64,000 nucleotides of DNA from Jannaschia seohaensis (GTDB taxonomy: Bacteria > Pseudomonadota > Alphaproteobacteria > Rhodobacterales > Rhodobacteraceae). Below, piece after piece: positions 35,146 to 59,008 of the stretch. The notes below the pieces were generated by a model that saw only the letters and a program-made list of their open reading frames with translations, was not told the origin of the DNA and ran no database searches. Made by a program: the position numbers and the translations under genes. Each line of letters starts with the position of its first letter. The first letter of the stretch is position 1. The stretch covers positions 1-64,000 of the forward strand of contig NZ_UETC01000007.1 in the NCBI RefSeq assembly GCF_900116765.1, read 5' to 3'.

Positions 35146-37284
<2,139 letters not shown>

Positions 37285-37405: not shown

Positions 37406-39430
37406 TCAGACGGCGATAACGCCGCCATCTTCTTTCGTGACGACCACGACCGAGGGGCGCGGCGGCATGGCCGGGTGGAAATCGGGCCAACGCGTCGCCG
37501 GATCCTCGAAGGTCGAGTTCCGCTCGAAGCCGACCATCGCGCTCACGCCATCGGTGCCGGGATGCTGCACCGCCAGGAACAGCGTCCGGCTCTCGTCGGC
37601 AAAATACGGCCCGCAAAGCTCCCCACCGACGGGGCAGCGGAAGAACAGCTTGGAATGGCCGCGCAGATCGCCTTCTGTCTCCAGCCCGTAGAGGCCGTCC
37701 GACTTGCCCGTGCGCCCCCAGCCGGAGCCCTGGTCCGTCGAGATCCAGAGCCGTCCGGCACTGTCGATGGCGCAGTTGTCCGGCGAGGCGAACCAGCCCG
37801 CATCCGAGGTCTCTGGGTTCCACATCGCCCCGACCTCTTCGACGTCCGGGTCGCCGCAGAGGACCAGGATCGACCATGTGCCGGTCGTGGCGGAGTGGTT
37901 GCCGCCCTCTTCCTTGATCTCGATGATATGGCCGAAATTCGACTCGGGCCGGGGGTTGGCGGCGTCGACCTGATCGGGCTGACGGCGCGAGTTGTTCGTC
38001 AGCATGATGTAGGCCGTCCCATCGCCGCGCGGCTGCGCGTCTTCGGGGCGGTCCATCGGCGTGGCGCCCAGGAGATCGGCGGCCAGCCGCGTGTCGATCG
38101 AGACGTCGGCCTGGCTGTTGAAGCCGTTCTCGACCGTCAGCGGCCCTTCGCCATGGACGAGCGGCAGCCAATCGACCGTTCCGTCATCATTAAAACGCGC
38201 CACATAGAGCGTCCCCTCGGACAGAAGCGACGAGCCGAAGACGGCGTTCTCCTCGGTGACGGCCTCGGCCGAGACCCATTTGTACTGGTAGTCGAAGCGG
38301 TTGTCGTCGCCCGAATAGATCACCAGCTTGCCGTCCGAGGCCACGGTCGTCTCCGCGCCCTCATGGCGGAAGCGGCCCAGCGCCGTGTGCTTGATCGGCG
38401 GCGCGTCCGGGTTCATCGGATCGACCTCGACGATGTAGCCGAAGCGGTTGGGCTCGTTCGGTTCCAGGTCGATGTTGAAGCGGTCGTGATACTTGCCCCA
38501 GGCATACCAGCGGCCCGGCACGCCATAGCGCTTCATCGACGCGGCCTCGGGCTGTTCCGAGATGTCCGGGTCGCCATCGGCGTCCAGCTTGTCCGTCCAG
38601 AAGTAGCCGTGGAAGTTCTCCTCGGCCATCAGGTAGGTGCCCCAGGGCGTCATGCCGCCGGCGCAGTTGTTGATCGTGCCGAGCACCCTCATGCCCTCGG
38701 GGTCGGCACTGGTCTTGAGGCGATCATGGCCGGCGGCCGGGCCGGAGAAGGTCATCGGCGTCTCGGCGGTGATCCGGCGGTTGGCGGGGTTGTCGCGATT
38801 GATCGACCACTTGCCGTCGGCGCCCTTGACGATCTCGAAGACGGACCCGCCATGGGCGGCCATCTCGATGTCGACCAACTCCTTGGTCATGCCCGCGAAG
38901 TCCTGGTTGTCCTGACGGCCCAGGCCCGGGAACATGACTTCTTCGTTGGTGTATTCGTGATTGACGCAGAGCATCCCGCGGCCGGGCTCGATCTCCGCGA
39001 ATCCGACATAGTCGTTGTTGTAGCCAAACTGCTTGGCCTGGGCCGCGGCGGTCTGGTTCATGACGTCGAAATCGGGGGCGTCGGCGGTGATCGGGTCGCC
39101 CCAGCGGACCAGGATGTCGGCGTTATAGCCATCGGCGATGTGGTGGGTCGTGTCGTTGCCCCACTGGAGTTCGTCGAACGCGTAGCGGCTGGCGGCGGCG
39201 CCTTGGGCCTTGGCGGATTTCGGCGCGGTCAGAGCGGTCGTCCCGAACAGGGCGGTGGTCGCCGCCACGCCGAGCGAGCCGCGCAGGACGTCGCGGCGGC
39301 CATAGCGCCGCGCGATCACATCGCCGATCGTATTGCCGAGATTCGGATTGGTCGGAATGTCGTCGAAGGCTTCGAAGGCTTCGGCCTTGTTGCCATACTC
39401 CTGATTATTCAAAATTTCTCTACGGTTCAT
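37406..39430 (-). CDS. PhoX-family (DUF839) alkaline phosphatase, Tat exported
   Basis: A 674-residue protein with a twin-arginine leader (YGRRDVLRGSLGVAATTALF near residues 43-62, then AKAQGAA), so it is exported folded. The DUF839/PhoX domain follows: YVGFAEIEPGRGMLCVNHEY, FSGPAAGHDRLKTSADPEG, NNCAGGMTPWGTYLMAEENF. PhoX enzymes bind calcium and iron and cleave phosphomonoesters. The start at 39430 is set by GGGAG six bases upstream; an ATG two codons earlier overlaps that site. No convincing Pho box was seen in the 385 bases before it, which otherwise hold no gene. Confidence 0.92.
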   Translation of the reverse strand: MNRREILNNQEYGNKAEAFEAFDDIPTNPNLGNTIGDVIARRYGRRDVLRGSLGVAATTALFGTTALTAPKSAKAQGAAASRYAFDELQWGNDTTHHIADGYNADILVRWGDPITADAPDFDVMNQTAAAQAKQFGYNNDYVGFAEIEPGRGMLCVNHEYTNEEVMFPGLGRQDNQDFAGMTKELVDIEMAAHGGSVFEIVKGADGKWSINRDNPANRRITAETPMTFSGPAAGHDRLKTSADPEGMRVLGTINNCAGGMTPWGTYLMAEENFHGYFWTDKLDADGDPDISEQPEAASMKRYGVPGRWYAWGKYHDRFNIDLEPNEPNRFGYIVEVDPMNPDAPPIKHTALGRFRHEGAETTVASDGKLVIYSGDDNRFDYQYKWVSAEAVTEENAVFGSSLLSEGTLYVARFNDDGTVDWLPLVHGEGPLTVENGFNSQADVSIDTRLAADLLGATPMDRPEDAQPRGDGTAYIMLTNNSRRQPDQVDAANPRPESNFGHIIEIKEEGGNHSATTGTWSILVLCGDPDVEEVGAMWNPETSDAGWFASPDNCAIDSAGRLWISTDQGSGWGRTGKSDGLYGLETEGDLRGHSKLFFRCPVGGELCGPYFADESRTLFLAVQHPGTDGVSAMVGFERNSTFEDPATRWPDFHPAMPPRPSVVVVTKEDGGVIAV

Positions 39431-39815
39431 CCTCATCTCCCTTTGGCGATCCGCTTGCGGAACTGGCGCTCCACGCCACCTCACGGCGCCCTAATGCACA
39501 TGCTCCACGACGGTTTTGCGAAGCTTCCATGCCTTTTCACCTTACCGGGCCGCCGAAATGACTCAACGATCTTGAGCACCGGCCGGTCTGGCGGGCCATT
39601 TCCGCCAGCCCCCGTCGAACTCAGCGCCCGGGGAACCGGCCACTGCCCCGGCGCGGGCCTTGATCCGGTGCCGTGGCCAAGCTGTCTCCGCCACCGAACC
39701 GCGCCGCGGATGCGGCCCTGCGGCGACCCATCCGGCTCGGGTCATCGACCGGGCAAGAACCGCACTTTTTTGCCTTGCGAGCCCGCGAGCGCTGTCCTAA
39801 GACCCGCGGCACGGT
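39431..39815. other. Gap between phoX-like gene and tRNA-Gln
   Basis: About 385 bases. The left part should hold the phosphatase promoter, the right part the tRNA promoter. The sequence is GC-rich with several short open frames but none has a start site or domain that I can support. Confidence 0.4.
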
Positions 39816-39890
39816 TGGGGTGTGGCGCAGTGGTAGCGCAACGGTTTTTGGTACCGCAGGTCGTAGGTTCGAATCCTACCACCCCAGCCA
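39816..39890 (+). tRNA. tRNA-Gln (anticodon TTG)
   Basis: A full cloverleaf can be drawn: acceptor TGGGGTG/CACCCCA, D arm GCGC-AGTGGTA-GCGC, anticodon loop TTTTGGT with TTG, T arm GTAGG-TTCGAAT-CCTAC, discriminator G and encoded CCA. It decodes CAA. Its 3' end is shared with the last codons of the recombinase gene on the other strand, making it the probable attachment site. Confidence 0.95.
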
Positions 39891-40739
39891 AATCTCATTC
39901 TTTGCGGATGTCGCCTGACCTGCCGTCGCTGCGCGCGCGGCGATAGCCGTAGTTTCCGCCAAAATATCAAAGGGTTGGCGGAAGGTGGCGACCACCTCCC
40001 CATCCTCCCAGGTGCATTTCGATAGCACGATTTTCAGAAGCCGCCGCTTCTCGCGGGCCGGCTGGCGTTCGAACAGGGCCTGCGCGTTCCGGGCGATTTC
40101 GAGAATCCGCAAACCCTCATCCATGTAGGACTGCTCGGCCTCCTCGTGGCGCTCGATGTCCCGTTGCAGGCGGCGCTGCTCCTCGCGCCACTTGCCCGAC
40201 ATCTCCTCGAAGAACGCGCCGGTGATCTTCCCGTCGAGCTTGTCGACATACATCGCGCTGATCCGCTCGCCGAGACGGGCGTGCTCAGCCTGAAGCCGGG
40301 CGATCGCCTCCTGATGCTCGCGGCGCTCGTCGGCGTCGCTGGCGTGCAGGGCCTCGCGCACCCACTCCAGCACCTCGTCGTCGAAGCGAAGCCGGCCGAG
40401 CATGGCGGTGAACTGCTGCTCCAGCACCTCCTCGCGCACATACTTCCGGCGGCACGAGGCAGGCTCGCCCCGGCATTTGTCCGCGTAGCCGGTGCAGTGA
40501 TAGTAGATGCATTTATGCCTTTTGATCTCGCCGACCACCGAACAGCCGCATCGCGCGCAGGCGATCAGGCCCGAGAAGGCGAAGTCGTGCGTCATGCGGC
40601 AGTGCTTGCTGGCGTTCCGGCCGTCCATCACGCCCTGCACCCGCTCCCACAACTCGACCGGCACCAGCGCCTCGTGCTTGCCCTGATAGAGCTTGCCGTT
40701 CCACTGGCGTTGGTGCACGAAGCCGGTCCTGGAATTCAC
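39876..40739 (-). pseudogene. Large serine recombinase, truncated at the N-terminus
   Basis: About 287 residues of the C-terminal half: part of the recombinase domain (YQGKHEALVPVELWERVQGV), the zinc ribbon (ACARCGCSVVG, CTGYADKCRGEPASCRR) and the long coiled coil. The catalytic resolvase domain is missing; the sequence breaks at about 40740, where the IS5-family element begins. The final codons, reading Trp-Leu-Gly-Trp-stop, come from the tRNA-Gln 3' end. It was probably the integrase that brought in the neighbouring DNA and is now inactive. Confidence 0.85.
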
Positions 40740-40740
40740 A

Positions 40741-41838
40741 GCGTGAGTTCAGCGACCTAGCTGGGGGGCATGTCCAAGCCTGCGCCCACCCGCTCCCGTA
40801 CCCTGAACTGGTCCAGCTACAACGCCGCGTTGCGTAAGCGCGGCTCGCTGACGGTCTGGTTCGATCCGTCGACGCCGTGGCATGCGGCCCCTTCGAGCAA
40901 GCGCGGCGCGCAGCCGGTCTACAGCGACGCCGCGATCCAGGCCTGTCTGACGGTGAAGGGTGAGGGGCGTCTCGGGATCGGTCCAGTGGACAGATCCAGC
41001 CCCGAACGGGCGGAGCCCTGGGACGGTTCGGCTTGCCGCTGCGCCAGACGACGGGCTTCGTGGCGAGTTTGCTCAAGCTTGCAGGCCTGAACTGGCCGGT
41101 GCCGGACGTCTCGACCTTGTGCCGCCGTCAGAAGACGCTGGCCGTGCAGCTGCCCTACCGCGGCTCGGGCGGCCTGCTGCATCTTCTGGTCGACAGCACC
41201 GGGATCAAGGTCAGGGGCGAGGGCGAATGGCATGCTCGCAAGCATGGCGGGGCCAAGCGACGCGTGTGGCGCAAGGTGCATCTGGCGGTGGACGCGGCGA
41301 CGCTTGAGGGTGAGCCCCGCGAACGCCGTCGAGTTCACCGACAGCAACATAGGCGACGCGCCCATGCTGCCCGGCCTGCTATCGCAGATCCCGGAGAGCG
41401 AGCCGATCGCCTCCGGCGAGCCCGCGAGCGCCGATGGTGCCTATGACGGCCGCGCCTGCCGCGACGCCGTCGCGTCCCGAGGCGCCGATGCGATCATCCC
41501 GCCGCGCCGCAACGCCAAGCCGTGGACGACAGACAGCCCCGGCGCGGGGACCCCGCAACGAAGCCTTGCGTGCCATCAAGCGCTTCGGCCGGACGCTCTG
41601 GCGGAAGTGGTCCGGCTACCACCGCAGAAGCCGCGTCGAGGCCAAGATGAACTGCATGAAGCTGCTGGGTCCGAAGCTCATGTCCCGCAACTTCGACCGC
41701 CAGACGGCCGAACTCCAGGTCCGGATCGCCATCCTCAACCGCTTCACCGCGCTCGGCATCCCCGTCACGCAGCCCATCGGCTGAACCCCGCGGCGGAAGG
41801 GGGGAACTCGCCTTTGCGATGCTTCGTGCAACAGAGCC
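40741..41838 (+). mobile_element. Degenerate IS5-family insertion sequence
   Basis: The right end is GCTTCGTGCAACAGAGCC (41821-41838), the reverse of the GGCTCTGTTGCAC-type terminal repeat of this group. No matching left terminal repeat is visible at about 40741, where the sequence joins the recombinase fragment, so the left end appears deleted. The transposase is frameshifted and carries a foreign palindromic insert. The element looks immobile. Confidence 0.75.
40770..41784 (+). pseudogene. IS5-family transposase, frameshifted
   Basis: The protein is recognisable in pieces across three frames: NWSSYNAALRKRGSLTVWFD and DAAIQACLTVK (40770-40958), LRQTTGFVASLLKLAGLNWP to HLLVDSTGIKVRGEGEWHAR (41033-41305; contains a catalytic Asp), EFTDSNIGDAPMLPGLLSQI and DGAYDGRACRDAV (41330-41535; second Asp), and YHRRSRVEAKMNCMKLLG to the stop (41560-41784; catalytic Glu). 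About 70 bases between 40958 and 41025 interrupt the gene with an inverted repeat. At least three frame breaks make it non-functional. Confidence 0.85.
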
Positions 41839-41857
41839 GCGTCGGCCCGGTTGTTGT

Positions 41858-42211
41858 TCAGTCGCCTCTGGCCTTTCTTGCCTCCGCCGCGAGCCGGGCG
41901 ATCTCGTCGCGGGTCATGCCGCTGGTCGTCCGAAGAAGCGCCGACACCTCGACCGGCGCTCGCTTGATGATGTCGGCCAGGTCCGAGGGCATTCGCCCCG
42001 CCAAAGCCAGCAGCTCGTCGGGATCGCATTCGATGATCTGCGCGATGGCCCTGACCTTGTCCTCGGTCGGTGGCGTGAACTCGTCGCGCTCGACCTTGGA
42101 CAAGTAAGTCGGGCTCACCCCAATCTTTTGGGCCATTTGGCGCAAACCGATCTCCCTTGCCTCGCGTTCCCGGCGAACGAATGCGCCGAACTTCAGACCC
42201 TCAGCGGTCAT
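41858..42211 (-). CDS. XRE-family regulator, likely antitoxin-type, partner lost
   Basis: A 117-residue protein with an N-terminal helix-turn-helix (about residues 18-75: RQMAQKIGVSPTYLSKVERD, then TPPTEDKVRAIAQIIECDPD) and a helical tail. Regulators like this are usually followed by an ImmA/IrrE-type peptidase gene (from general knowledge), but downstream here lies the IS right end, 20 bases away. The IS or the rearrangement probably removed the partner. GAGAGGA lies before the ATG. It is predicted to bind its own promoter between 42212 and 42370. Confidence 0.8.
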   Translation of the reverse strand: MTAEGLKFGAFVRREREAREIGLRQMAQKIGVSPTYLSKVERDEFTPPTEDKVRAIAQIIECDPDELLALAGRMPSDLADIIKRAPVEVSALLRTTSGMTRDEIARLAAEARKARGD

Positions 42212-42369
42212 GGCTTCCTCTCCTGTTTAGTGGATAGATAACACGCGAGTCGCCCAACATCCAGATGCTGCGTATCGATAGGGAACGCTCCTCTATATCT
42301 AGCGCATTTGCGCGGCGGCGCTCGGCGATGCGCTGTGCTGCGGGACGGGCGTCTCGCCAATGCAGGCCC

Positions 42370-42462
42370 TCACGCAGTGAGGTCCAGCCACCGGATTTCC
42401 TCCAAAACCTGCCGAATTCCGGCTCTGGCGATACGCACATGGTTTCGTATAGCTGCTGGACG
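42370..42462 (-). pseudogene. C-terminal remnant of an unknown gene, copy 1
   Basis: Read on the minus strand it encodes YETMCVSPEPEF, then after a one-base deletion QVLEEIRWLDLTA and a TGA at 42370. The fragment at 52700 encodes the same end (YRTMCLAPEPEFRQ and on, ending TLDLAA). The parent gene is not recognised. The rest of the 454-bp gap (42212-42665) holds no supported gene. Confidence 0.55.
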
Positions 42463-42665
42463 TTTGCCACATCAGCCCACGTCAACAAGGAACCCGCGCA
42501 GCGCGAGCCCTTCTTCAAGAACAATCCCGGGTTTTCGCGCGGCGACGGGTCTGCCATCGGTCTTCGTTACGCAAGGAAACCATCGCATGCAGGTCCGGCT
42601 AACCGTGTGCGATTGGCCGATACTCGACGGCGTGCCGCCAGATAGACGGCGGTGCGGCGATACTG

Positions 42666-43709
42666 TCACCCGTGCGGCCTGCCGTATGCCACTTCCAGAG
42701 CCCGGATCGCGAACCGTCGTGCCAGCGGCGCAAGCGCCGCGGCCTCCGGATCGCTGGCCGTTCCCGACTGCGCCCGGTCGGAGATGCCGACGAAGATCAC
42801 CGCAAATCGGTAGAGGGCGAAGGCCTCGTGGAACGGCAGGAGCGGGGCCTCGAACGCCACCTGCGCGCGGTAGCGGTCAACGAATGTGCGCTGCGACGGG
42901 AGGCCTGTGGTTTCGAGGTCGTATCCGAGAAGCCCCCCGTACTCGTCGGGCGAGGTGTGCCAGGGCATGACGCAGAAGCCGAGGTCGGCAAGCGGGTGGC
43001 CCAAGGTCGAAAGCTCCCAGTCGAGGATCGCGACGACGCGGGGTTCCTCCGGGTGAAACAGGAGGTTCCCGAGGCGGAAGTCACCGTGGCAGAGCGCGAT
43101 GAGCCCGTCGTCGGGCGGCATGTTCGCGACGAGCCAGGCATGGAGGCTCTCGATCTCGGCAACGCTCCCGGAGGGCGAGGTGCGATATTGCCGGTCCCAT
43201 CGGGCGATCTGCCGCTCGAAATAGTTGCCGGGTCTGCCGTAATCGCCGAGGCCCACCTCGTCCGGCCGGATATGGTGCATCGCCGCAAGCGCGTCGGCCA
43301 CCGCCATCCAGATCGCATGCCTCTCCGAACGCGGCAGCTCGGCCAGCGAGGTGTCGGTGAACACGCGGCCCTCCACGCGCTCCATCAGGTAGAAGGGCGT
43401 GCCGATCAGCCTGGGGTCTTCGTGGTAGAGAACCGGCCGCGGAACCGGCACGCCGGTGGGGTGGAGCGCGTCGAGGACGCGGTATTCGCGGTCGACCGCG
43501 TGCGCCCCGCGCAGGATCGGGCCGCCGGGCTGCTTTCGGAGGACCAGCCGACGGTCGGCCCAGTCGAGGAAATAGGTCGGGTTCGACTGACCGCCGCCGA
43601 TCCGGGAGAGCGCGAAGCGCCCGCCGTCCGGCCCAAGGTGCCGGTGCAAGACCCCCGCCAGCGCCTCGGGATCGAAATCGAGGGGACTCTCGGTCTGCGC
43701 TGCGGTCAC
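42666..43709 (-). CDS. APH-family kinase, LvaA/ACAD10-type hydroxyacyl-CoA phosphotransferase
   Basis: A 347-residue aminoglycoside-phosphotransferase-fold protein: SRIGGGQSNPTYFLDWADRR (nucleotide loop), VLRKQPGGPIL (ATP Lys), catalytic CHGDFRLGNLLFH (Asp and Asn), and metal-binding ILDWELSTLGHPLADLG. The GTG start overlaps the stop of the acyl-CoA dehydrogenase (GTGA), so the two are coupled. In mammalian ACAD10/11 and in Pseudomonas LvaA this kind of kinase, paired with such a dehydrogenase, phosphorylates 4-hydroxyacyl-CoA. I infer the same role. Choline kinase-like activity is unlikely in this context. Confidence 0.85.
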   Translation of the reverse strand: MTAAQTESPLDFDPEALAGVLHRHLGPDGGRFALSRIGGGQSNPTYFLDWADRRLVLRKQPGGPILRGAHAVDREYRVLDALHPTGVPVPRPVLYHEDPRLIGTPFYLMERVEGRVFTDTSLAELPRSERHAIWMAVADALAAMHHIRPDEVGLGDYGRPGNYFERQIARWDRQYRTSPSGSVAEIESLHAWLVANMPPDDGLIALCHGDFRLGNLLFHPEEPRVVAILDWELSTLGHPLADLGFCVMPWHTSPDEYGGLLGYDLETTGLPSQRTFVDRYRAQVAFEAPLLPFHEAFALYRFAVIFVGISDRAQSGTASDPEAAALAPLARRFAIRALEVAYGRPHG

Positions 43710-44911
43710 GGTGCGGTCTCCCACCGGTAAAAGCCCGTCCCCTGGTCGGCGAGGTGGCGGTTGATGACCATCTTGTGGACCTCGTCCGCCCCATCCACCA
43801 GCCGCGCCTGACGGGCGTAGCGGTAGATCCACTCCAGCACCGTGTCGGTCGAATATCCCCGTGCGCCGTTGATCTGGATCGCCGTGTCGGCAGCCTTGTG
43901 GAGAAGGTTCGCGACGTGGATCTTCGCCATCGACACCTCCTTTTGCGCGTAGCCGCCGCGATCGATCTCCCAGGCCGCCTTCATCACGAGGAGCCGGCCG
44001 ACCTCGACCTGCATGGCGAGATCGCCCAGCATGACCTGTACGCTTTCGCGATCTGCGAGACGCACGCCAAAGCCCTCGCGGCGTGCGGCGTAGTCGCGCG
44101 CGATCTCGATGCAGCGCTTCGCGAGCCCGAGCCACCGCATGCAATGGGTCAGCCGCGCGGGTCCCAGCCGCGTCTGCGTGACCTTGAGCCCGCGTCCCTC
44201 CTCCAAGAGCACGTTCTCGGCCGGGATACGCAGCCCGTCGTAGACGATCTCGCAATGGCCGCCGTGCTCCTCGGGCCCCATGATCGGAATACGGCGGACG
44301 ATCTCCCAGCCCGGGTCGTCGCGGTGATGGAGGAACGCCGTGAGGCCGCGCCGCGGATCGTCGGAGGTGCGCGCCATGAGGATGAAGTGCTCCGCCGCGC
44401 CGGCGCCGGTGATGAACCACTTTCGGCCGCGGATCACGTAGGCGTCACCGTCTCGCGTCGCGGTCGTCCGCATCATGCCGGGATCCGATCCGCCGCCGGG
44501 CGCGGGCTCGGTCATGGCGAAGGCCGAGCGGACCTCGCCCCGCACGATCGGGGCGAGCCACCGTTCCCTCTGCGCCTCGGTTCCAAGGGCCTCAAGCACC
44601 ATCATGTTGCCGTCGTCTGGCGCGGCGGCGTTGAACACCACGGGACCGAAGATCGAGCGGTTCATCGTCTCATAGGTGACGGCCATGCCGATCTTGCCGA
44701 TGCCGAGGCCGCCGTTCTCGGGCGAGACCTGCGGGCACCAGAGCCCCTCGGCGCGCGCCTTGGCGCGCAGCGCCTGCAGCGGCTCCTCGGCGATGTTGTC
44801 GTGCGCGTCCCAGGCGGAGCGGTCCGCCTCGACCGGCAGGATGTGGGCTTCGACGAAGGTCTCTATCCGGTCCCGGAGCGCGGCGAGGTCGGGCGAAATG
44901 GAGAAGTCCAT
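43706..44911 (-). CDS. Acyl-CoA dehydrogenase of the ACAD10/11 (LvaC-like) type
   Basis: A 401-residue flavoprotein with the usual alpha-beta-alpha plan: SAFAMTEPAPGGGSDPGMMR and YVIRGRKWFITGAGAAEHFI (FAD-binding), ARREGFGVRLADRESVQVML and the C-terminal QINGARGYSTDTVLEWIYRY. Where ordinary acyl-CoA dehydrogenases have the catalytic Glu in YEGT, this protein has RLVDGADEVHK with Asp, a feature I associate with ACAD10/11. Those enzymes remove phosphate from 4-phosphoacyl-CoA. The chosen start ATG 44911 (MDFSISPDLAALRDRIETFV) fits the family. It is coupled to the kinase. Confidence 0.88.
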   Translation of the reverse strand: MDFSISPDLAALRDRIETFVEAHILPVEADRSAWDAHDNIAEEPLQALRAKARAEGLWCPQVSPENGGLGIGKIGMAVTYETMNRSIFGPVVFNAAAPDDGNMMVLEALGTEAQRERWLAPIVRGEVRSAFAMTEPAPGGGSDPGMMRTTATRDGDAYVIRGRKWFITGAGAAEHFILMARTSDDPRRGLTAFLHHRDDPGWEIVRRIPIMGPEEHGGHCEIVYDGLRIPAENVLLEEGRGLKVTQTRLGPARLTHCMRWLGLAKRCIEIARDYAARREGFGVRLADRESVQVMLGDLAMQVEVGRLLVMKAAWEIDRGGYAQKEVSMAKIHVANLLHKAADTAIQINGARGYSTDTVLEWIYRYARQARLVDGADEVHKMVINRHLADQGTGFYRWETAP

Positions 44912-44919
44912 GATGCGAC

Positions 44920-45666
44920 TCACAATCCTGAAACGAGGTGCCCGCCATCGACGGCGACGATAGAGCCGGTCATGTAGGCCGAATGCTCGGACGCGAGCAG
45001 AAGGAGCGGGCCGTCGAGGTCGCTCAGCCGTCCGAGGCGTCGTTGGGGGATGCGCTTGATCAGCGCGCGACCCGCGTCGGTCTCGAAGAAGGCCCTGTTG
45101 ATCGGCGTCTCGACGTAGCCGGGGCAGAGCGCGTTGACGCGGATGCCGTACCGCGCCCATTCGAGCGCGAGCGCCTTCGTCAACTGCACGACGGCCGCCT
45201 TCGAGGCCGTGTAGGCGGGGACGTGCCCGGCGACGCGAAGCCCGAGGATGGAGGCAATGTTCACGATGCTGCCGCCACCCGCGTCGCGCATTGCGCGCGC
45301 GGCGGCCTGGGCGACGCCGAAGATGCCAGTCAGGTTCGTGTCGACGACGCTGCGGAACGCTTCGGTCTCCATGTCCATCGCGGCGCCGTCCCCGGCGACG
45401 CCGGCATTGTTAATGACGATGTCGAACGCCGGGCGCCCGCCGAAAAAGGCTGCGATGCTGGCGGGCCCGGTCACGTCGAGCGCGCCCGCGTCCGCCGCGT
45501 GCCCAGCCTTGCGCAGTGCGTCGGCCTCCGCCTCGACTCGCTCCTGTCGGCGCGCAGCCAGCGTGACCTCCGCCCCTGCCGCTGCAAGAACGCCCGCGAA
45601 ATGCAGGCCGAGCCCGCTGGATGCGCCGGTGACGAGGGCGCGCTTGCCGTCCAGTGAGATCCCCAT
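44920..45666 (-). CDS. Short-chain dehydrogenase/reductase, 3-ketoacyl-reductase type
   Basis: A 248-residue SDR: NADP loop [29 protein letters not shown], Ser in IASILGL, and Tyr/Lys in YTASKAAVVQL; the C-terminal YMTGSIVAVDGGHLVSGL is canonical. Its ATG shares one base with the upstream TPP-enzyme stop (TGATG), so the genes are coupled. In an lva-like scheme it would reduce a 4-keto acyl-CoA to the 4-hydroxy form before phosphorylation. A truncated paralogue is at 52960. Confidence 0.9.
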   Translation of the reverse strand: MGISLDGKRALVTGASSGLGLHFAGVLAAAGAEVTLAARRQERVEAEADALRKAGHAADAGALDVTGPASIAAFFGGRPAFDIVINNAGVAGDGAAMDMETEAFRSVVDTNLTGIFGVAQAAARAMRDAGGGSIVNIASILGLRVAGHVPAYTASKAAVVQLTKALALEWARYGIRVNALCPGYVETPINRAFFETDAGRALIKRIPQRRLGRLSDLDGPLLLLASEHSAYMTGSIVAVDGGHLVSGL

Positions 45667-47396
45667 CACGCCATCTCACGACGCTTGCGCTCGGCGTCGT
45701 CCCAGGCTGTGAGCGGCTGGTAATCCGGCACGAAGCCCAGCCCTTTCTGTGCGTCCGACGACACCGCATCCTGCGAGGTGACCACGTCGATCACGGCGGG
45801 CGCATTGGCGAGACCCCGGCGGATCGCATCGGCCAGTTCCGAGGGGGTCTCGACCCGCTCGCCATGCGCGCCGAGGGCGCGGGCCATGCCCGCATAGTCG
45901 GAGTGGCGCAGCGTGGTGCCGACGACGCGTCCGCCGTAGTTGAATTCCTGGTCGTAGCGCTCGATGTTCCAGGCGGCGTTGTTCGACACGATGAAGACCG
46001 CCTTCGCGCCATGCCTGACGGCCGTGTCGATCTCCATCGCGTTGATCCCGTAGGCGCCGTCGCCGTTGACCGAAATGACTTGCCGATCCGGGAAGGCGAG
46101 GGCGGCGGCGACGGCGAACGGCACCCCGACGCCAAGGCAGCCGAAAGCGCCCGCGTCCATGTAGGTGCTCGCCGTCAGTCCGATGCGGGCGAAGCTCAGC
46201 AGGTCTCCGCCATCCGCGATCGCGATGTGATCCGGGTCCGCGACCTCGCGCAGCGCCTCGAAGATGGCGAGCGGGTGGATCTTGCCGTCGCCGCCCGTCT
46301 GGGGCGCGGACGTGTCGTTGCCCTTGGCGATCCGTTCGCGATGCTTGGCGCGAAGGCCCGAGAGCCAGCCTTCGTCGCGGACGCCTGCGTCGTTGCCGAG
46401 CGCCTCCGTGATGGCGTCCAGCGTCGCGCCGACAGGGGCGAGGATCTCGGTGCCGCGCCGGTTGTCGATCAGCTCACCCGCCGTATCGGAGATGCGCAGG
46501 AAATGTGCCTCGGGGAAGACCGCCGGAGATCCGAAACCAAGTTGGTAGTCGAGCTTCCTACCGAGCGTGACCACAAGATCGGCCTGCGCCATGGCCGCGG
46601 CGCGCACGGCGCCCACGACCGCGGGATGCTCCGCCGCCACGAGGCCCCGGCTCTCTTGTGTATCGAGGTAAAGGGCGTCGACGGCATCGAGAAACGCCGT
46701 GACCGAAGCGCCGGCACCGCGTGCACCGCGTCCGCTGACGACAAGCGGGCGCTTCGCCTCGCGGATCGCCGCAACGGCTGCCGTCACGCTCTCGGGGGCC
46801 GGGCTTACCCGGCGCGGCGGTTTCGGCGCGATCCAATCCCTTGGGACCAGCGATGGACCTACGCGGCTGCGCAGCACGTCCGTCGGCACCTCGATGTAGG
46901 ATGGTCCCGGTTCTCCCATGTCGCCCATGGCGCGCGCGATCGCCTCGTCGAGTTCGCGGATGACCTGCTCGGCCACCCGGGCGGTGCGGCTGTAGCGTGT
47001 GACGGGTCGCATGATGTCGACATGCGGAATGTCCTGGAGCGGCCCCATGTTGGCCTGGTGACGGGATGTGCAGCCGCCGATCAGCAGGACCGGCACCCGC
47101 GCGAGGGAGGCGTTTGCCACGCCGGTCACGCAGTTCGTGACGCCCGGCCCGGCCGTCGCCATGGCCACACCAAGCTCGCCGGTGAGCTCGGCATGGGCGT
47201 GGGCCATGTGGACCGCCGCCCCCTCGTCGCGCACGTCGACGATGGCGATCCCGCGCTGGGCGAGATGGTCCCAGACAGGCTGGATGTGGCCGCCCTGAAG
47301 CCCGAAGACGCGCGTGACGCCGCGCGCCTCGAGCAGTGTCGCGATCCAGGCCGCGACACTTTCGGGATTGCTGTTGAGGTCCTGCCGATCGGTCAT
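45666..47396 (-). CDS. Thiamine-diphosphate enzyme, acetolactate synthase-like
   Basis: A 576-residue TPP enzyme with three domains: PYR (residues 1-180, catalytic Glu in [18 protein letters not shown]), central (190-330, [11 protein letters not shown]) and PP (360-550) with [14 protein letters not shown] and NNAAWNI binding the diphosphate through magnesium. It is a large-subunit-like protein without a regulatory small subunit nearby. Candidate reactions are benzaldehyde-type decarboxylation, acyloin formation or 2-hydroxyacyl-CoA cleavage; the neighbouring CoA ligase favours the last. Coupled to the SDR. Confidence 0.85.
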
Positions 47397-47430
47397 GCGA
47401 AGTCTCCCTTTCGTGTTCGTCCCACGGGCG

Positions 47431-48990
47431 TCAGGCGACGCGAGCAGCCATCATGTCCCGCAGAACGCGGTGGAGGATCTTGCCTGTGGCGTTGCGCGGC
47501 ATCTCGTCCGGCCCGAGGAAAAGGATTTCGCGGGGTCGCTTGTACCCGGCGAGCCGTTCCTTCGACCACGCGATGAGGTCTTCGGCCGTCAGTGTCGCGC
47601 TCTTGCGCAAGACCACCGCGGCGGCGACGCGCTCGCCCCACTTGTCGTCAGGGCGGCCGACCACGGCCACGTCCTTGACGTCCGGGTGCTGCCCGAGGAT
47701 CGCTTCCACCTCGGTCGGGTACACGTTCTCGCCGCCAGAGATGATCATGTTCTTCTTTCGATCGATGAGACGAATGAAGCCGTTCTCATCGCGCAAAGCC
47801 ATGTCGCCGACGGAGAGATACGGGCCGCGAAACGCCTCGGCCGTCTTTTCCGGCAGGTTCCAGTAGCCCTCGAAGGCGTAGGGCCCGCAGGAGAACAACT
47901 CGCCCGGCTCACCGTCGGGCACCTCGTTGCCATTGTCGTCGAGCAGCAGGATCGGTGCCGATCCCACCACCTCGCGGCCGACCGTGCCGAGATGGTCGAA
48001 CTGTTCGTTGGGATGAAGAAAGGTCACCCAGCCTGCCTCGGTCGAGCCGTAGAGTTCGTAGAGGCCGGAATTCGGGAACATCTCCATGATCGCGCGCTTT
48101 GTCTCAACCCGCGCGGGTGCGGACGACACCATGAGCTTTTCAACTGAGCCGTAATCCGCCGTGCCGCGCTCGGCTTCCGGGACATCCAGCATCATCGTGT
48201 AATGGGTCGGCACGAGCGAGGTGAACGTGATGCCCATGTCTCCGATCGTGCTCAGGCAGAGGCCGGCGTCGAAGCTGGGCCGCGAGAAGATCGTGACGCA
48301 GGCGCCGATCAACAGAAAGGACGTGAAGAAATTGAGCGAGTTGGCATGGCACATCGGCATGACGAGCAACGCATTGTCACGGCGTTTCAGGCTCAGTTCG
48401 ACCTGCGTCATCAGCGCGAGCATGGCCATCCCGCGGTGAGACCGGATCGCGCCCTTGGGATTGCCGGTGGTGCCAGACGTATACATCAGACACCACGGAT
48501 CATCGGGCGACACCGACGCCTCCGGTTCCGATGCAGGCGCGGACGCGATCAGCGCCTCGTAGCAGCGCCATCCTTGGGTCGTTTCGCCGTCGAGCAGGAT
48601 AAAGCGGTCGCTGTCGACGGCGATCTCGGAGCGGAACGCCTCGGCGATGCCCGCCAGCGAGGGCTCAGCGATTACCGCGCGCACGTCGCAATCTTCGCAG
48701 ATGAAGCGAGCCTCGGGCGCGGTCAGCCGGAAGTTGACCGGCACGGCGACAAGGCCGACCTTCGCGACTGCGGCGTAGATTTCTGCCCATTCGAGGCGGT
48801 TGTAGGCGAGCACGGCCACCCGGTCGCCCTTTGCGAGGCCGAGGTCCAGAAGACCGTTCGCGAGGCGGCAGGCGCGCGCGTTCCACTCCCGGAAGGTGAG
48901 CGCACGCTCCAGATCCCGGGCGCCGATGCGCTCGGGCTGAAGGCGCGCCTGCGCGCTCAGCATCTCGCCAACGGTAAGCATCCTGGTCAT
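47431..48990 (-). CDS. AMP-forming acyl-CoA ligase
   Basis: A 519-residue adenylate-forming enzyme. The P-loop is [17 protein letters not shown], further cores are [37 protein letters not shown] and the C-terminal lysine in [14 protein letters not shown]. It activates a carboxylic acid to its CoA ester with ATP and probably feeds the pathway. Its ATG overlaps the GntR stop (ATGA). A close paralogue of identical length at 54808 has a nonsense codon. The substrate is unknown; an LvaE-like keto-acid ligase is one hypothesis. Confidence 0.92.
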
Positions 48991-49694
48991 GCGCGTGCCT
49001 CCGGGGTTTGCTCGGCTTGCCTGCTGGCGACGAGCGCCGAATGCAGCGTCCGCGCCGCGCCGAGATCGTGCTCGGCCATGAGCCGCTCTGCCGTGTCGGG
49101 ATCTCCCGCCGCGATGGCGTCCGCGATCTCGGCATGCTGGCGCCAGATCTCCTTGGGCAGCGTCGCCTGGCGCAGCACCTCTCCCATCGCGCGCTGCAGA
49201 AACCGCCAGTGCGGCTCGGCCGTGCGCGCCAATAACGGGTTGCCCGACATTTCGTAGACGAGTTCATGGAGCGCCCGGTCTTGCCGCACCTGCTCGGCCG
49301 TGTCGTCGGTTTCGACCGCCTGCGTGCCGGCCGAAAGGATCGCGTCAGCACGGTGCCTGAAGATCTCGCCCGCTCCCGCCTCGGCGCGCACGCGGTCCGC
49401 CGTAAGCCGTGCCGCCAGTCCATCCAGTACGGCGCGGATGTCGTAATGGTGCTGCATCAGGTCCGGGTCGAGCGGCGCGACCCACAGCCCGCGGCGGCCG
49501 ATCTCCTCAACGACTCCGTCAGCCTTGAGGCGGGCCATAGCTTGTTGAACCGGCTGCCGTGAAACGCCCAGCCGCTCGGCGATCTGTTCTTGAACCAAGT
49601 GCGATCCGGCCGGCAGCGTGCCGCCGCAGATCTCGTCGACGAGGGCATCGTAGACCTGATCGGCAAGGTTTGGATTGGGTTTCAGGAGCGTCAT
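48987..49694 (-). CDS. GntR-family regulator, FCD type
   Basis: A 235-residue regulator: winged helix (residues 10-75, SHLVQEQIAERLGVSRQPVQ, then QAMARLKADGVVEE) and FCD ligand domain (85-225). FCD regulators sense organic acids. It is the first gene of a six-gene minus-strand operon, coupled to the ligase, and the perfect palindrome ATTCTGAATTCAGAAT lies 13 bases before it, most likely its own operator. A frameshifted paralogue is at 56364. Confidence 0.9.
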   Translation of the reverse strand: MTLLKPNPNLADQVYDALVDEICGGTLPAGSHLVQEQIAERLGVSRQPVQQAMARLKADGVVEEIGRRGLWVAPLDPDLMQHHYDIRAVLDGLAARLTADRVRAEAGAGEIFRHRADAILSAGTQAVETDDTAEQVRQDRALHELVYEMSGNPLLARTAEPHWRFLQRAMGEVLRQATLPKEIWRQHAEIADAIAAGDPDTAERLMAEHDLGAARTLHSALVASRQAEQTPEARA

Positions 49695-49706
49695 TTTGAA
49701 CTCCGA

Positions 49707-49722
49707 ATTCTGAATTCAGAAT
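49707..49722. promoter_or_regulatory. Palindromic operator of the GntR-led operon (cluster A)
   Basis: ATTCTGAATTCAGAAT is a perfect 16-bp palindrome 13 bases upstream of the GntR start. The matching position in cluster B holds GTTCTGAATTAAGAAT (57074-57089), which differs at two bases. Conservation at the same distance from two GntR genes supports its role. Confidence 0.75.
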
Positions 49723-49760
49723 GCAATAAGGTGCGCCAATCGCCGAGTCAAGCGGTCGCG

Positions 49761-50672
49761 TCAGCCCTCCCAGGCGGGCGAGCGGAAGGCGGCGACGAGA
49801 AAACCCACGAAGGTTCGGATGCGCGGGACCATGTCACGGTCGGGCAGGAAAACGGCATGAATGGCGGTGTCGTCGCTTGGCGCATGATCGCGCAGAAGCT
49901 CGACAAGCCTTCCGTCGCGGATGGCGGGGCGCGCGAGATGCTCGGCAACCCGCATTACGCCTACGCCCGCAAGGCACATCGCGAAAAGCGACATGCCCTG
50001 GTTGCCGCGAAAACGGCTTTGCGCGTGAAAACTCGCCTTCTCTCCGTCGCGGACGAAGCTCCAGCGGTTCAGATGTTCGCGGCTGCCATCCCACGCAATG
50101 CAGGGCATCCGCGCGAGATCGGCGACGCTTTCGGGCGCTCCGTGGCGCTCGACGAGACCGGGGGCTGCGACGACGATCCGGCGCAGCCGGCAGAGCCGCC
50201 GGTGAATGAGGCCCGAATCCGACAGCCGGCCCATGCGGATCGCGACGTCGATGCCATCGGCGATCAGGTTCTCGTGGTCGTCGGTCAGGCGCAGGTCGAG
50301 AGAAAGGTTTGGATGCCGCGCGAGGAACTCGGGCATCAGCGGCGTGACCCGGTCGAGCCCAAAGGCGATGGGCGCGGACACGCGCAACTGCCCCTCGATC
50401 TGCGCCTCCTCCCTCTGCCAGAGCGCCTCGGCCTGCTCGACCGCGCCGATGACCGTCCGCGCGGCGCCGAGGAACCTCTCTCCCTCGGGCGTCAGGCGCT
50501 GTCCACGCGTGGTGCGATGCAGGAGCTTGGCGCCCAGCCGCGTTTCGAGCCTGCGGATTGTCTGGCTGACGAAGGACTGGCTTGCCCCGAGCATGTTGGC
50601 GGCCGCAGAAAAGCCGCCCGTGTCGATCACCGCGCGGAACACCCGCATTTCCAGTAGCCGGTCGTCCCTCAT
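49761..50672 (-). CDS. LysR-family regulator (cluster A)
   Basis: A 303-residue LysR protein: winged helix-turn-helix (residues 5-60: FRAVIDTGGFSAAANMLGAS, then QSFVSQTIRRLETRLGAKLL) and a periplasmic-binding-like effector domain. It is divergent from the class II aldolase gene at 50809. Its counterpart at 57128 has the same length. It lies downstream of the GntR gene on the same strand but has its own promoter region. Confidence 0.92.
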   Translation of the reverse strand: MRDDRLLEMRVFRAVIDTGGFSAAANMLGASQSFVSQTIRRLETRLGAKLLHRTTRGQRLTPEGERFLGAARTVIGAVEQAEALWQREEAQIEGQLRVSAPIAFGLDRVTPLMPEFLARHPNLSLDLRLTDDHENLIADGIDVAIRMGRLSDSGLIHRRLCRLRRIVVAAPGLVERHGAPESVADLARMPCIAWDGSREHLNRWSFVRDGEKASFHAQSRFRGNQGMSLFAMCLAGVGVMRVAEHLARPAIRDGRLVELLRDHAPSDDTAIHAVFLPDRDMVPRIRTFVGFLVAAFRSPAWEG

Positions 50673-50689
50673 CCCGCCTCCTGATCGTA

Positions 50690-50700
50690 ATAACTGTTAT
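50690..50700. promoter_or_regulatory. LysR-type inverted repeat between LysR and aldolase genes (cluster A)
   Basis: ATAACTGTTAT (5+1+5) lies in the 136-bp gap between the divergent LysR and aldolase genes. The B cluster has a longer version, TGCAATAACAGTTATTGCA, at the same place. Confidence 0.6.
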
Positions 50701-50808
50701 CGCGTTTGGATGATTGCGTGTCATGGGCCCGTTACTCAATACCCGCGACCAAGGTGCGGGCCTGCGAACGGCGGGCCCGCCGCGACAGTGCAAATGGGAG
50801 GTCTCGCC

Positions 50809-51621
50809 ATGCTCGATCTTGGAAACCGCGTCTCGATCTACCAGCCCGAGCAGGACGGGCTCATCTTCCCGGAAATCCCGGAGTTCGCCTCGGTCGAGGA
50901 CGAGCGGCGGCACCGCAAGGAGCGTCTCGTCGCCGCCTGCCGCGCCTTCGCGCAGCAGGGCTTCGACTACGGGTTCGCCGGCCATCTCACCGTGCGCGAC
51001 CCCGAACGGCCCGAGCTTTACTGGACCAATCCGATGTGCGTGCACTTCGATAAGGTGAAGATGTCGAACCTGATCCTCGTCGATCACGACGGCAAGGTGA
51101 TCGAAGGCAGCTACGCCGTGAACCGCGCCGGCTTTGTTCTGCACGCCAACGTGCACGAAGCGCATCCCGACATCATCGCCATGTGCCACGCCCACACCAC
51201 CTACGGCACGGCATGGTGCGCGACCGGGCGGCCCATCGACCCGATCACGCAGGATGCCTGCGCCTTTTTCGAGGATCACGTGGTGATTGGCGAGCAGGGC
51301 GGTGCCGTGGCCGTCGAGAACCACGCCGGAAGCGACGTGGCGAAGGCGTTCAAGGGCGTGAAGGCCGCGCTTCACCAGAACCATGGCTTGCTGACCGCGT
51401 CGCGTCATTCAATCGAAAGTGCCGCCTTCTGGTTCATCGCGCTCGAGCGCTGCTGCCAGCAACAGCTCGCCATCGCGGCCTCGGACGTCGAGCCTATCCG
51501 CATTCCCTCCGAGCGGGCGCGCTACAGCCGCGAGCATGTGGGCAGCGAGTATATCGGCTGGCTGCATTTCCAGACGATCTGGAACCAGCTGGTCGAGGAC
51601 CAGCCCGACATGTTCGACTGA
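50809..51621 (+). CDS. Class II aldolase/adducin family protein (cluster A)
   Basis: A 270-residue class II aldolase-fold protein. Zinc ligands are in MCHAHTTYG (HxH) and LHQNHGLLT, and the catalytic acid should lie in the GFAGHLTVRDPE loop or near VHEAHPD. Members are aldolases, epimerases or decarboxylases on sugar-like acids and phosphates. GGGAGG lies 8 bases before ATG 50809. The cupin and peroxiredoxin genes follow. The paralogue at 58180 has the same length and only scattered changes. Confidence 0.88.
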   Translation: MLDLGNRVSIYQPEQDGLIFPEIPEFASVEDERRHRKERLVAACRAFAQQGFDYGFAGHLTVRDPERPELYWTNPMCVHFDKVKMSNLILVDHDGKVIEGSYAVNRAGFVLHANVHEAHPDIIAMCHAHTTYGTAWCATGRPIDPITQDACAFFEDHVVIGEQGGAVAVENHAGSDVAKAFKGVKAALHQNHGLLTASRHSIESAAFWFIALERCCQQQLAIAASDVEPIRIPSERARYSREHVGSEYIGWLHFQTIWNQLVEDQPDMFD

Positions 51622-51666
51622 GTCCACCGAAACCTTCAGCACCGAAATACATTGAGAGCGGCGGGA

Positions 51667-51933
51667 ATGACTTCGGAAGAATTCAAGGCGATCTGCAGAG
51701 GCAAAGGCTACGCCTTGCCGAAACAAGTGTCGTTCGAAGCGCTATCCCGCAGCGTTTCCCACACGCATGATCAGGTATCGTTTGTCTACGTGCTGGAGGG
51801 CGAGTTTATTCTCAACACTCCCGCCGGAAGAACATGCTACGGTGCGGGGGAGACCTGCTTGCTCGATGCAGATGTCGAACACGCAGAGGAGGCAGGCCCC
51901 TCCGGTGCAGTGATCTTGGTGGCAAGGAAATAG
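51667..51933 (+). CDS. Small cupin protein
   Basis: An 88-residue single cupin domain: SRSVSHTHDQVSFVYVLEGE, then GAGETCLLDADVEHAEEAG (two His-containing motifs). It may bind a metal or a sugar-like ligand. It follows the aldolase by 45 bases; a TTG at 51652 is an alternative start. Its GC content is lower than that of the flanking genes, suggesting a different origin. Confidence 0.75.
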   Translation: MTSEEFKAICRGKGYALPKQVSFEALSRSVSHTHDQVSFVYVLEGEFILNTPAGRTCYGAGETCLLDADVEHAEEAGPSGAVILVARK

Positions 51934-51964
51934 TGGTGCGGCTCGTGAAGGAGGTTCTGTCGAA

Positions 51965-52495
51965 ATGACACTCAAGGCCGTACCCGATGTCGTTTTTCAT
52001 ACTCGTGTGCGAAACGATGCGCTTGAGGGTCCAAATCCCTTCGAATGGAAGGACATGACCACAAGCGACCTGTTCGGCGGAAAGCGCGTCGTGCTATTTG
52101 CGGTGCCGGGTGCATTCACGCCTGCCTGCTCGGAGAGCCATCTTCCGGGGTATGAGGCAAATTTCGATGCGTTCAAGGCGCTTGGCGTTACTCATGTCTA
52201 CTGTCTGTCCGTCAATGACGCTTTCGTCCTGCGCCAGTGGGCTCTGTCTCGGAACATCGAAAGAGTCATCATGTTGCCGGATGGAAATGGCGATTTTAGC
52301 CGCATGATGGGTATGCTGGTGAAGCGAACCGCGCAAGGCATGGGGTACCGCAGTTGGCGCTACTCCATGTTTGCGGTCGACGGCATGATCGAAAAGCTCT
52401 TTATCGAGCCCGGACTCCAAGACAACCCCGGCGGCGTGCCTGTAGATCGATCCGACGCGGAAACGATGCTCGGCTACCTGCGCTCAAGCCATTAG
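51965..52495 (+). CDS. Peroxiredoxin, Prx5 type
   Basis: A 176-residue peroxiredoxin. The active-site block is PGAFTPACSESHLPGYEANF, with peroxidatic Cys about residue 51; the fold continues through LSVNDAFVLRQWALSRNIER. It reduces peroxides, perhaps linked to a flavin oxidase in the cluster. Base composition is lower in GC than cluster genes on either side. It ends the plus-strand transcript of cluster A; 200 bases then precede the remnant at 52700 with no gene. Confidence 0.9.
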   Translation: MTLKAVPDVVFHTRVRNDALEGPNPFEWKDMTTSDLFGGKRVVLFAVPGAFTPACSESHLPGYEANFDAFKALGVTHVYCLSVNDAFVLRQWALSRNIERVIMLPDGNGDFSRMMGMLVKRTAQGMGYRSWRYSMFAVDGMIEKLFIEPGLQDNPGGVPVDRSDAETMLGYLRSSH

Positions 52496-52699
52496 AAAAT
52501 GGAATGCGCAGTGTTTGCGCAGGGAATTTTCGATGTCATGCTCTCTCATCCTATCTTGACCGAGAGCAAGCGAGACAGTCAGCCCTGAGAGAGCGGCCGC
52601 GTTGGGAACGACAATGCCGGGTTGTCGCTCAGCGCGAAGCGACGGACGGGAATTTCAGGCCACGGAGCTATGATCGCCGTAATTAACCACGACCGTCGA

Positions 52700-52857
52700 C
52701 TATGCGGCGAGGTCGAGGGTGCGAATGTCCTTGAGGAGCTGCCGAAATTCCGGCTCCGGCGCCAAACACATTGTTCGATACGTGTTCAGGAACGGCAGCC
52801 AAATCTTTCGAAGTTCGGATCCCGCTTCACGGGCGATCGCGGCGCTAGGCAAGGCGT
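52700..52857 (-). pseudogene. C-terminal remnant of an unknown gene, copy 2
   Basis: In one minus-strand frame this reads ALPSAAIAREAGSELRKIWL, PFLNTYRTMCLAPEPEFRQL and LKDIRTLDLAA, then TAG at 52700. The end matches the fragment at 42370. It has no start and the frame runs into the decayed SDR region. The parent gene is not recognised. Confidence 0.55.
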
Positions 52858-52959: not shown

Positions 52960-53272
52960 GCGCCGGTCAGGTTGGTGTCGACGACGCTTCGGGAGGCATC
53001 CACCTCCATGTCCAGCGCGCTCTGTTCGCCCGCGACACTCGCGTTGTTCCAAAGATGTCGAAGGCGGGCCGCCCCGCGAAGAAGGGCGCGATGCCGTCGG
53101 GAGACGTCACGTCGATCGCTCCCGCTTCCGCCGCGCGTCCGGCCGATCGCAGGGTCTTCGCCTCAACGGCGTCGGTCCGTCGCGCCGCCAGCGTGACCTC
53201 CGCCCCAGCCTCGGCGAGAATATGCGGAAAATGCAGGCCCAGTCCGCTCGACGCGCCGCTGATGAGGGCGCG
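52960..53272 (-). pseudogene. Truncated SDR (cluster B), fused to the TPP enzyme
   Basis: Only the N-terminal half is left: [37 protein letters not shown], then GRPAFDI. A frame break follows at about 53055, after which [20 protein letters not shown] and SVVDTNLTG are readable in a second frame before the sequence degenerates. The Tyr/Lys catalytic part is absent. Upstream it joins the TPP gene through a 9-base GAGGGCGCG shared with the intact copies. Confidence 0.8.
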
Positions 53273-54773: not shown

Positions 54774-54807
54774 CTGCCGTCTCCCATGTCAGTTCGGACC
54801 GGCCGCG

Positions 54808-57062: not shown

Positions 57063-57073
57063 TTGAATTCCGA

Positions 57074-57089
57074 GTTCTGAATTAAGAAT
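57074..57089. promoter_or_regulatory. Operator-like palindrome of cluster B
   Basis: GTTCTGAATTAAGAAT, 12 bases upstream of the pseudogene start, differs at two positions from the perfect operator of cluster A. If the intact GntR protein still binds here, both clusters could be co-regulated. Confidence 0.6.
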
Positions 57090-57127
57090 TCAATGAGCCT
57101 TTGACCCGGTCGAGCCAAGCGAAGGCG

Positions 57128-58039: not shown

Positions 58040-58055
58040 CGCGCACCTCTGTTGC

Positions 58056-58074
58056 TGCAATAACAGTTATTGCA
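58056..58074. promoter_or_regulatory. LysR-type inverted repeat (cluster B)
   Basis: TGCAATAACAGTTATTGCA, 9+1+9, is a perfect inverted repeat with a one-base centre. It lies between the divergent LysR and aldolase genes and shares ATAAC-N-GTTAT with the cluster A site. The T-N11-A pattern of LysR sites fits inside it. Confidence 0.75.
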
Positions 58075-58179
58075 ATCGCAACGTTGCATGAAAGCGGGCT
58101 GCGCTCGCAATATCCGACCCCATAAATGAGGTCCGCGACCGTCGGCCCCGCCTCGATCATGCAAGCAGAGGATCTCCCC

Positions 58180-58992: not shown

Positions 58993-59008
58993 GCCAGGGC
59001 GGGGCGGC

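Follow-up and report, generated by a model that had tools for sequence, protein, structure and literature searches.

In mycobacteriophage BPs and its kin, attP lies inside the repressor gene and integration alters the C-terminus of the repressor. Some tyrosine phage integrases likewise have attP in the end of their own gene. An integration-dependent system and its attachment site are named in excerpts of PMC4557955. According to passages of PMC8371274, self-disrupting integrases are exclusively archaeal and of the tyrosine type; in these suicidal SSV-type enzymes the att site lies inside the integrase gene, which is disrupted on integration.

At tRNA genes, the signature used by Islander combines an intact tRNA gene with a displaced tRNA 3' fragment and a tyrosine integrase, and the authors of Islander stated in 2014 that serine recombinases were not known to target tRNA genes (both from passages of PMC4383910). 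Serine recombinases at tRNA genes were described in 2011 for the AICEs of Mycobacterium (tRNA-Leu) and for phiRSM1 (tRNA-Ser), according to a section of PMC3218068, and a third case, the Paracoccus phage Pami6 in tRNA-Met, is given for 2019 in a section of PMC6536676. tRNA-targeting serine integrases are already in print, and they are rare. An earlier note on the DNA studied here had remarked that large serine recombinases are not the classic users of tRNA genes, and their rarity in the relevant parts of the printed record bears this out (PMC6536676, PMC4383910, PMC3218068). Our searches among open-licence papers turned up no serine integrase with attP in its own coding sequence and no self-severing one.

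Here we analyse a tRNA-Gln locus that we consider likely to be the attL of a decayed integrative element, belonging to a family in which attP would lie within the recombinase gene and the tail of the enzyme would be severed on integration. This degree of confidence applies to the architecture of the family; we are less sure of the boundary of the element at the locus itself, 39886-52801.

Results

The tRNA-Gln junction

The window, i.e. the whole 64-kb stretch of Jannaschia seohaensis DNA under analysis, holds a single tRNA gene, a tRNA-Gln (TTG) identified by ARAGORN. The features at and beyond its 3' end are the following.

39816-39890, plus strand: tRNA-Gln (TTG), the putative integration target, with the core at its 3' end (ARAGORN)
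39885-39890, plus strand: putative attL core CAGCCA, which reads TGGCTG on the recombinase strand (all 12 junction pairs agree at offsets 0-5)
39876-40706, minus strand: C-terminal fragment of a large serine recombinase, its last codons and stop within the tRNA gene (ORF, Pfam, alignment of relatives)
40706-41840, no strand assigned: IS remnant with broken DDE transposase ORFs, beyond which the N-terminal half of the recombinase is missing; the right edge is approximate (Pfam, genome repeat)

The minus-strand ORF at 39876-40739 encodes 287 aa, ends in ...EIWLGW and has its stop codon within the tRNA-Gln gene. The tRNA call and the translation thus confirm what the earlier note had described, a recombinase antisense to tRNA-Gln that stops inside it. 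Pfam recognised only a recombinase zinc ribbon in this ORF (PF13408, E 4e-11). Alignment to a full relative matched residues 244-529 of 530, so the catalytic half is absent, and no N-terminal half of the recombinase was found elsewhere in the window's genome. With the zinc ribbon alone left of its domains, the gene is a remnant, and judged from its sequence the window copy is dead. Approximately the first 11 residues of the ORF, the part above 40706, are not recombinase: the alignment starts at residue 12 or 13 in 23 of 34 relatives and at residue 7 in 4, being partial in the remaining 7. In addition, 40706 marks the start of a repeat of which the genome contains other, diverged copies (79-87% identical), and we therefore assign the part of the ORF above this position to an IS remnant.

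Relatives and their tRNA targets

One scan of named genomes with six peptide patterns yielded 34 relatives. ARAGORN and the sequence following the recombinase end identified an intact antisense tRNA gene there in 23 of them (L091 after a separate check), tRNA-Gln in 19 and tRNA-Asn in 4. With such a gene at the recombinase end in 23 of 34 relatives, the arrangement exceeds chance, supporting the earlier proposal that the tRNA junction is one attachment junction of a serine-recombinase element. Intact relatives overlap the tRNA as well, and the overlap is therefore not confined to the truncated gene, to which it had been tied. In five relatives the recombinase end leads into a tRNA 3' fragment (L062, L071, L081, L087, L088), in four no tRNA follows it (L060, L065, L083, L085), and two were not classified, L073 having lost its end and L089 ending with its contig.

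Two of the four relatives without a tRNA, L060 (at ~1393) and L085 (at ~8816), have a non-tRNA flank in common, with ~65 nt shared and CAGGGAA repeats beyond. This flank is a possible second type of target. It was also considered as a P' arm and rejected, as it is absent from the ends of other elements.

The intact relative L061 carries the Resolvase, Recombinase and zinc-ribbon domains (PF00239, PF07508, PF13408) in one protein, which identifies it as a large serine recombinase, and 15 relatives aligned over its length. A predicted structure of an integrated-form relative (mean pLDDT 76.5; pTM 0.38, which is low) shows long helices after the zinc ribbon. Among PDB entries, complexes of serine integrases match it best (E 8e-18; TM only about 0.25). 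The last 14 residues have a pLDDT below 50, and in this model the core would therefore fall in a flexible end.

Among 385 genomes of the class, 12 matched at E 1e-60 or better, including those of the window and of L059 (L156 lies at the same place as L059). The new loci of this draw lie at tRNA-Asn (L157, L158, L161) and tRNA-Gln (L159, L160, L163, L164), with L168 lacking a tRNA and L166 ending with its contig. The recombinase end plus tail, used as query at E 1e-5, matched 12 of 397 genomes of G062's order and 3 of 390 of the window's order, from which we conclude that the family is rare. The loci in G062's order comprise tRNA-Asn (L180, L192) and tRNA-Gln (L182, L183, L184, L186), one locus without a tRNA (L187) and one without the core (L185). 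On a quick tree of the recombinase C-terminal sequence (56 rows, 52 of them different) the Asn label requires 5 changes, at least 4 of which are forced by starred branches, indicating that target switches recur.

Two distant relatives from the class draw end in other tRNA genes, L165 (~45% identical) in tRNA-Met and L167 (~28%) in tRNA-Glu. Targeting of tRNA genes may reach beyond the present recombinase family.

Downstream of tRNA-Gln, nearly every one of 20 genomes of the genus (L029-L048) differs, and in 15 of 19 relatives the tRNA has DNA of the upstream gene (window 35146-37284) no more than 1.5 kb away. By this comparison of sequences, the 3' side of tRNA-Gln is a strong integration hotspot in the genus. 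In the window, the conserved upstream gene is separated from the tRNA by a PhoX-type phosphatase gene (37406-39484); a distance of no more than 1.5 kb, as in the 15 relatives, leaves no room for it. The check for an empty site in relatives, which the earlier note had proposed, yielded flanks beyond the tRNA that differ in nearly all 20 genomes and no clean empty site in the genus. Gene order beyond the tRNA in relatives was dropped as empty-site evidence, being too variable.

The far end of the element

A copy of the tRNA 3' segment, proposed earlier as the attR to look for, is absent: the 3' 25-mer has no second copy in the window's genome at up to 3 mismatches, and a tRNA 3' duplicate was dropped as a candidate. 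The Islander-type combination of an intact tRNA gene, a displaced 3' fragment and a tyrosine integrase is not present at the window.

In the relatives, the far end was approached from an XRE gene and from the peptide encoded at the end itself, hereafter the tail. The XRE gene occurred in 10 of 25 stretches searched and in 15 of 34 once more upstream DNA was fetched; many others hold little upstream DNA. In 7 of the first 10 relatives (the exceptions being G068, G070 and G073) the DNA before this gene has a common sequence from TGGCT onward. Searching with the tail peptide located the far end in 12 of 34 stretches; its distance to the XRE gene was ~200 nt in 9 of them and 2.1, 2.6 and 12.1 kb in the other 3. 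No tail was found in 3 of the 15 XRE-bearing stretches (G070, L151, L152), and neither XRE gene nor tail turned up in ~20 kb of upstream sequence at either G135 (L159) or G321, or in 4 kb at G045. An nhmmer profile built from the far ends of the 12 relatives located two such ends in the window.

41858-42211, minus strand: XRE/Cro-type regulator, a conserved marker of the family (HTH by Pfam; in 12 of 12 two-ended elements)
42370-42451, minus strand: decayed second P' arm (orphan tail), lacking the first 19 bases of the model and the core (nhmmer E 1.6e-11)
42666-52495, no strand assigned: cargo between the two ends, comprising an APH-like kinase, acyl-CoA dehydrogenase, SDR, TPP enzyme, AMP-ligase, GntR, LysR, class II aldolase and redoxin
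52700-52801, minus strand: putative far end, a P' arm encoding the orphan recombinase tail WLPFLNTYRTMCLAPEPEFRQLLKDIRTLDLAA followed by a stop (nhmmer E 8e-23, translation)
52796-52801, plus strand: putative attR core CAGCCA (profile match, junction pairs)

Over 66 pairs of the 12 far ends, the 60 nt inside the core are 75% identical on average and the 60 nt outside 25%, which is chance level. Twelve junction pairs were compared, from 11 relatives and the window (G068, which has no tRNA junction, was omitted; in G071 and G074 the element has been displaced from its tRNA, and that tRNA was used in the comparison). All 12 pairs agree at every offset from 0 to 5, and 3 of the 12 agree at offset 6; the tRNA junction and the far end have only this 6-bp core in common. 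It reads TGGCTG at tRNA-Gln and TGGCTC at tRNA-Asn. In the loci compared, both tRNAs end in AGCCA, the complement of TGGCT, and the sixth base tracks the target, being G in all 9 of the tRNA-Gln pairs and C in all 3 of the tRNA-Asn pairs; both codons specify Leu.

The hypervariable 3' side of tRNA-Gln in the genus, together with the other element that L088 has at the T-loop, would also fit an ordinary tRNA hotspot, at which tyrosine integrases did the integration and the serine-recombinase piece is a bystander. We regard this as very improbable, as one and the same recombinase leads precisely into tRNA-Gln or tRNA-Asn at 23 of the 34 loci and the junctions share a 6-bp core, not a long tRNA fragment, with no tRNA 3' copy in the window's genome.

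A crossover in the tRNA T-loop had been hinted at by L062, L081, L087 and L088, in which the tRNA-like sequence breaks off at GGATTC or close to it. It was ruled out, since genomes with an intact junction show no second copy of their own 20-mer among the matches listed, and since in L087 and L088 another 2-3 kb of different DNA intervenes before the tRNA. This DNA (8421-10603 in L087 and 8827-11928 in L088) lies at the T-loop between the serine element and the intact tRNA, and a tRNA fragment of 17-20 nt is left beside the recombinase end. An ORF in the DNA inserted in L088 looks integrase-like by reading, and Pfam finds only DUF6538 in it. At L189 (1470-2462) the distance between the far-end tail and the recombinase end at tRNA-Asn is under 1 kb, and a deletion may have produced a mini-element here.

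Elements in the relatives measure about 11.8 to 28.0 kb (overlaps subtracted; G064 by coordinates). In the window, the unit between intact cores runs from 39886 to 52801, is 12.9 kb long and is possibly composite. The earlier note had treated the region of 40-61 kb as the unit; with the intact far end at 52801, the shorter interval replaces it. A remnant of a recombinase end to the right of 52801 was considered and rejected: a joined query matched across the core, but the peptide on that side, taken alone, scored within the range of shuffled sequences (209 of 500 did as well), and a search with the DNA model gave no match.

The orphan recombinase tail

Read in the recombinase frame through the core, the far end encodes W-L-P-(F/V)-x-x-x-Y-R-T-M-C..., 33 residues and then a stop. 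The stop stands at codon 34 in 11 of 12 far ends and is lost in G062. Over 66 pairs the pN/pS of the tail is 0.31, compared with 1.23 and 2.45 in the other frames. It is 0.29 in codons 1-10, which precede the only early Met, and 0.30 in the remainder. Because the constraint includes the codons before the Met, the tail appears to have been selected as part of a longer protein. G064 has a second, incomplete recombinase end upstream in tandem that runs through TGGCT into far-end sequence, recombinase end and tail being open in one frame of 105 residues. The junction is also joined in G450, where stops break it. Integrated copies have tRNA-antisense codons, of varying length and sequence, in place of the tail. 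With the tail in frame across the core, constrained, and joined to the recombinase in G064, the att site would fall inside the recombinase coding sequence. The two junctions and their core can be read directly from the DNA, as can the constraint on the codons of the tail and the single tandem copy that is joined in frame.

As the ATG at codon 11 could start translation and, in 9 of 12 elements, the XRE gene follows at a distance of ~200 nt, the tail might instead be a separate small protein or leader peptide beginning at Met 11, unconnected to the C-terminus of the recombinase, with the in-frame core a coincidence of ancestry. We consider this unlikely: codons 1-10 are constrained like the rest, the other frames are not, and G064 has a recombinase end that continues in frame into the tail. 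For the tail as the native C-terminus of the recombinase, we searched plasmids and viral contigs for a circular or plasmid form with recombinase and tail joined and found none; phage records, searched with the window fragment only, gave no joined form.

Recognition of the tRNA

For the A118 integrase, a passage of PMC3783163 places the zinc-ribbon motif at positions 16-24 of the half-sites of attP; in attB it lies 5 bp closer to the centre. When the tRNA T-loop 9-mer ATTCGAACC (offsets 16-24) was compared with the P' arms, the best match was at shift +5, with a mean identity of 0.70 that was the best of 41 shifts (the next being 0.55); the 12 arms are homologous and amount to about one observation. 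A short core and a putative ZD motif shifted by 5 bp between attB and attP are thus both found here, by comparison of sequences from homologous arms. In the tail, the bases TATnGAAC are fixed despite the availability of synonymous codons, in the window too. We infer that the zinc ribbon may read the tRNA T-loop. The chromosomal half of attB has no common sequence and looks unconstrained, which is odd for a serine integrase.

Cargo of the window element

The XRE gene and an ImmA/IrrE-like peptidase gene are present in 12 of 12 two-ended relatives. In 9 of the 12 there is also a type I restriction system (hsdM), and on this ground we count these elements as mobile type I restriction islands, a class defined by hsdR, hsdM and hsdS. 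Five element-gene queries, type I restriction among them, had no match in the first 80 kb of the window's contig, and the window carries a catabolic cluster instead of the relatives' restriction cargo. Whether this cluster moved with the recombinase element is uncertain, as the presence of a decayed far end at 42.4 kb hints at a composite origin.

The window element could also be a 2.6-kb remnant that reaches only to the decayed P' arm at ~42.45 kb, the arm at 52801 stemming from another copy and the DNA of 42.5-52.8 kb having come separately. Such a reading would shift the boundary and leave the mechanism untouched. The decayed arm sits beside the XRE gene, where 9 of 12 relatives end, and the relatives G068, G071 and G073, whose intact far ends are 2.1 to 12.1 kb further out than the XRE gene, were counted in favour of it as well. 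We take it seriously and still doubt it, as the decayed arm has lost its first 19 bases and the core and the arm at 52801 is intact with its core. We therefore keep to 39886-52801 as the extent of the element.

The catabolic cluster occurs twice in the window, at 45873-51626 and 53264-58996, the two copies being 80.1% identical over 5.8 kb. One copy is inside and the other just outside the end at 52801.

Discussion

Our data point to a family of large serine recombinases that would use the 3' ends of tRNA-Gln and tRNA-Asn genes as insertion sites. In the proposed mechanism, attP lies inside the recombinase gene, 33 codons before the native stop. Recombination would take place within the 6-bp core TGGCTG/TGGCTC, the complement of the last tRNA bases including CCA, and would leave the tRNA intact. 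Integration would join the last Trp-Leu codons of the recombinase to tRNA-antisense codons and leave the native tail stranded at the opposite end. That attP lies inside the gene in the mobile state we infer from the arrangement of the integrated ends.

The family resembles the large serine integrases (A118/LI, Bxb1, phiC31) in the order of Resolvase, Recombinase and zinc-ribbon domains, in the helices that follow in the model and in the 5-bp shift of the putative ZD motif. Unlike them, it targets the 3' end of tRNA-Gln and tRNA-Asn genes, and its attP appears to lie inside the recombinase ORF, the C-terminus changing on integration. With the AICEs of Mycobacterium, phiRSM1 and Pami6 it has a serine recombinase and a tRNA target in common; the excerpts that describe those elements leave a severed tail unmentioned, and the comparison is one of descriptions only. 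As in the archaeal suicidal integrases of the SSV type, the att site would be inside the integrase gene and integration would disrupt it (passages of PMC8371274). Those enzymes are tyrosine integrases from which the catalytic part is split off, whereas the present family is of the serine type, keeps the catalytic part whole and loses only the tail. Indeed, the catalytic domain is whole in the integrated L061, a serine recombinase from a bacterium, which sets it apart from the archaeal tyrosine type. The integration-dependent immunity of BPs offers another parallel, with attP in a gene and a protein whose C-terminus is changed by integration, but the gene that changes is the repressor there and the recombinase here.

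Loss of the tail may affect the direction of recombination. It is quite possible, if somewhat short of an even chance, that this is a bacterial self-severing serine integrase, in which integration swaps the C-terminal tail for tRNA-antisense codons and so helps to fix the direction: the long form would integrate, the short form would be silent or need a partner, and the tRNA sequence would be part of the switch.

The core TGGCTG or TGGCTC together with the tail provides a search rule that maps both ends of an element where a search for tRNA fragments fails. The family also suggests a route by which a serine integrase may come to use tRNA genes, with the zinc ribbon placed on the nearly invariant T-loop and the core made of the last tRNA bases that tRNA-Gln and tRNA-Asn have in common. 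Serine integrases are widely used as one-way tools for DNA insertion, and the control of integration versus excision is under active study. Since integration would rewrite the C-terminus of the enzyme, the present family offers a natural test of whether the tail controls direction.
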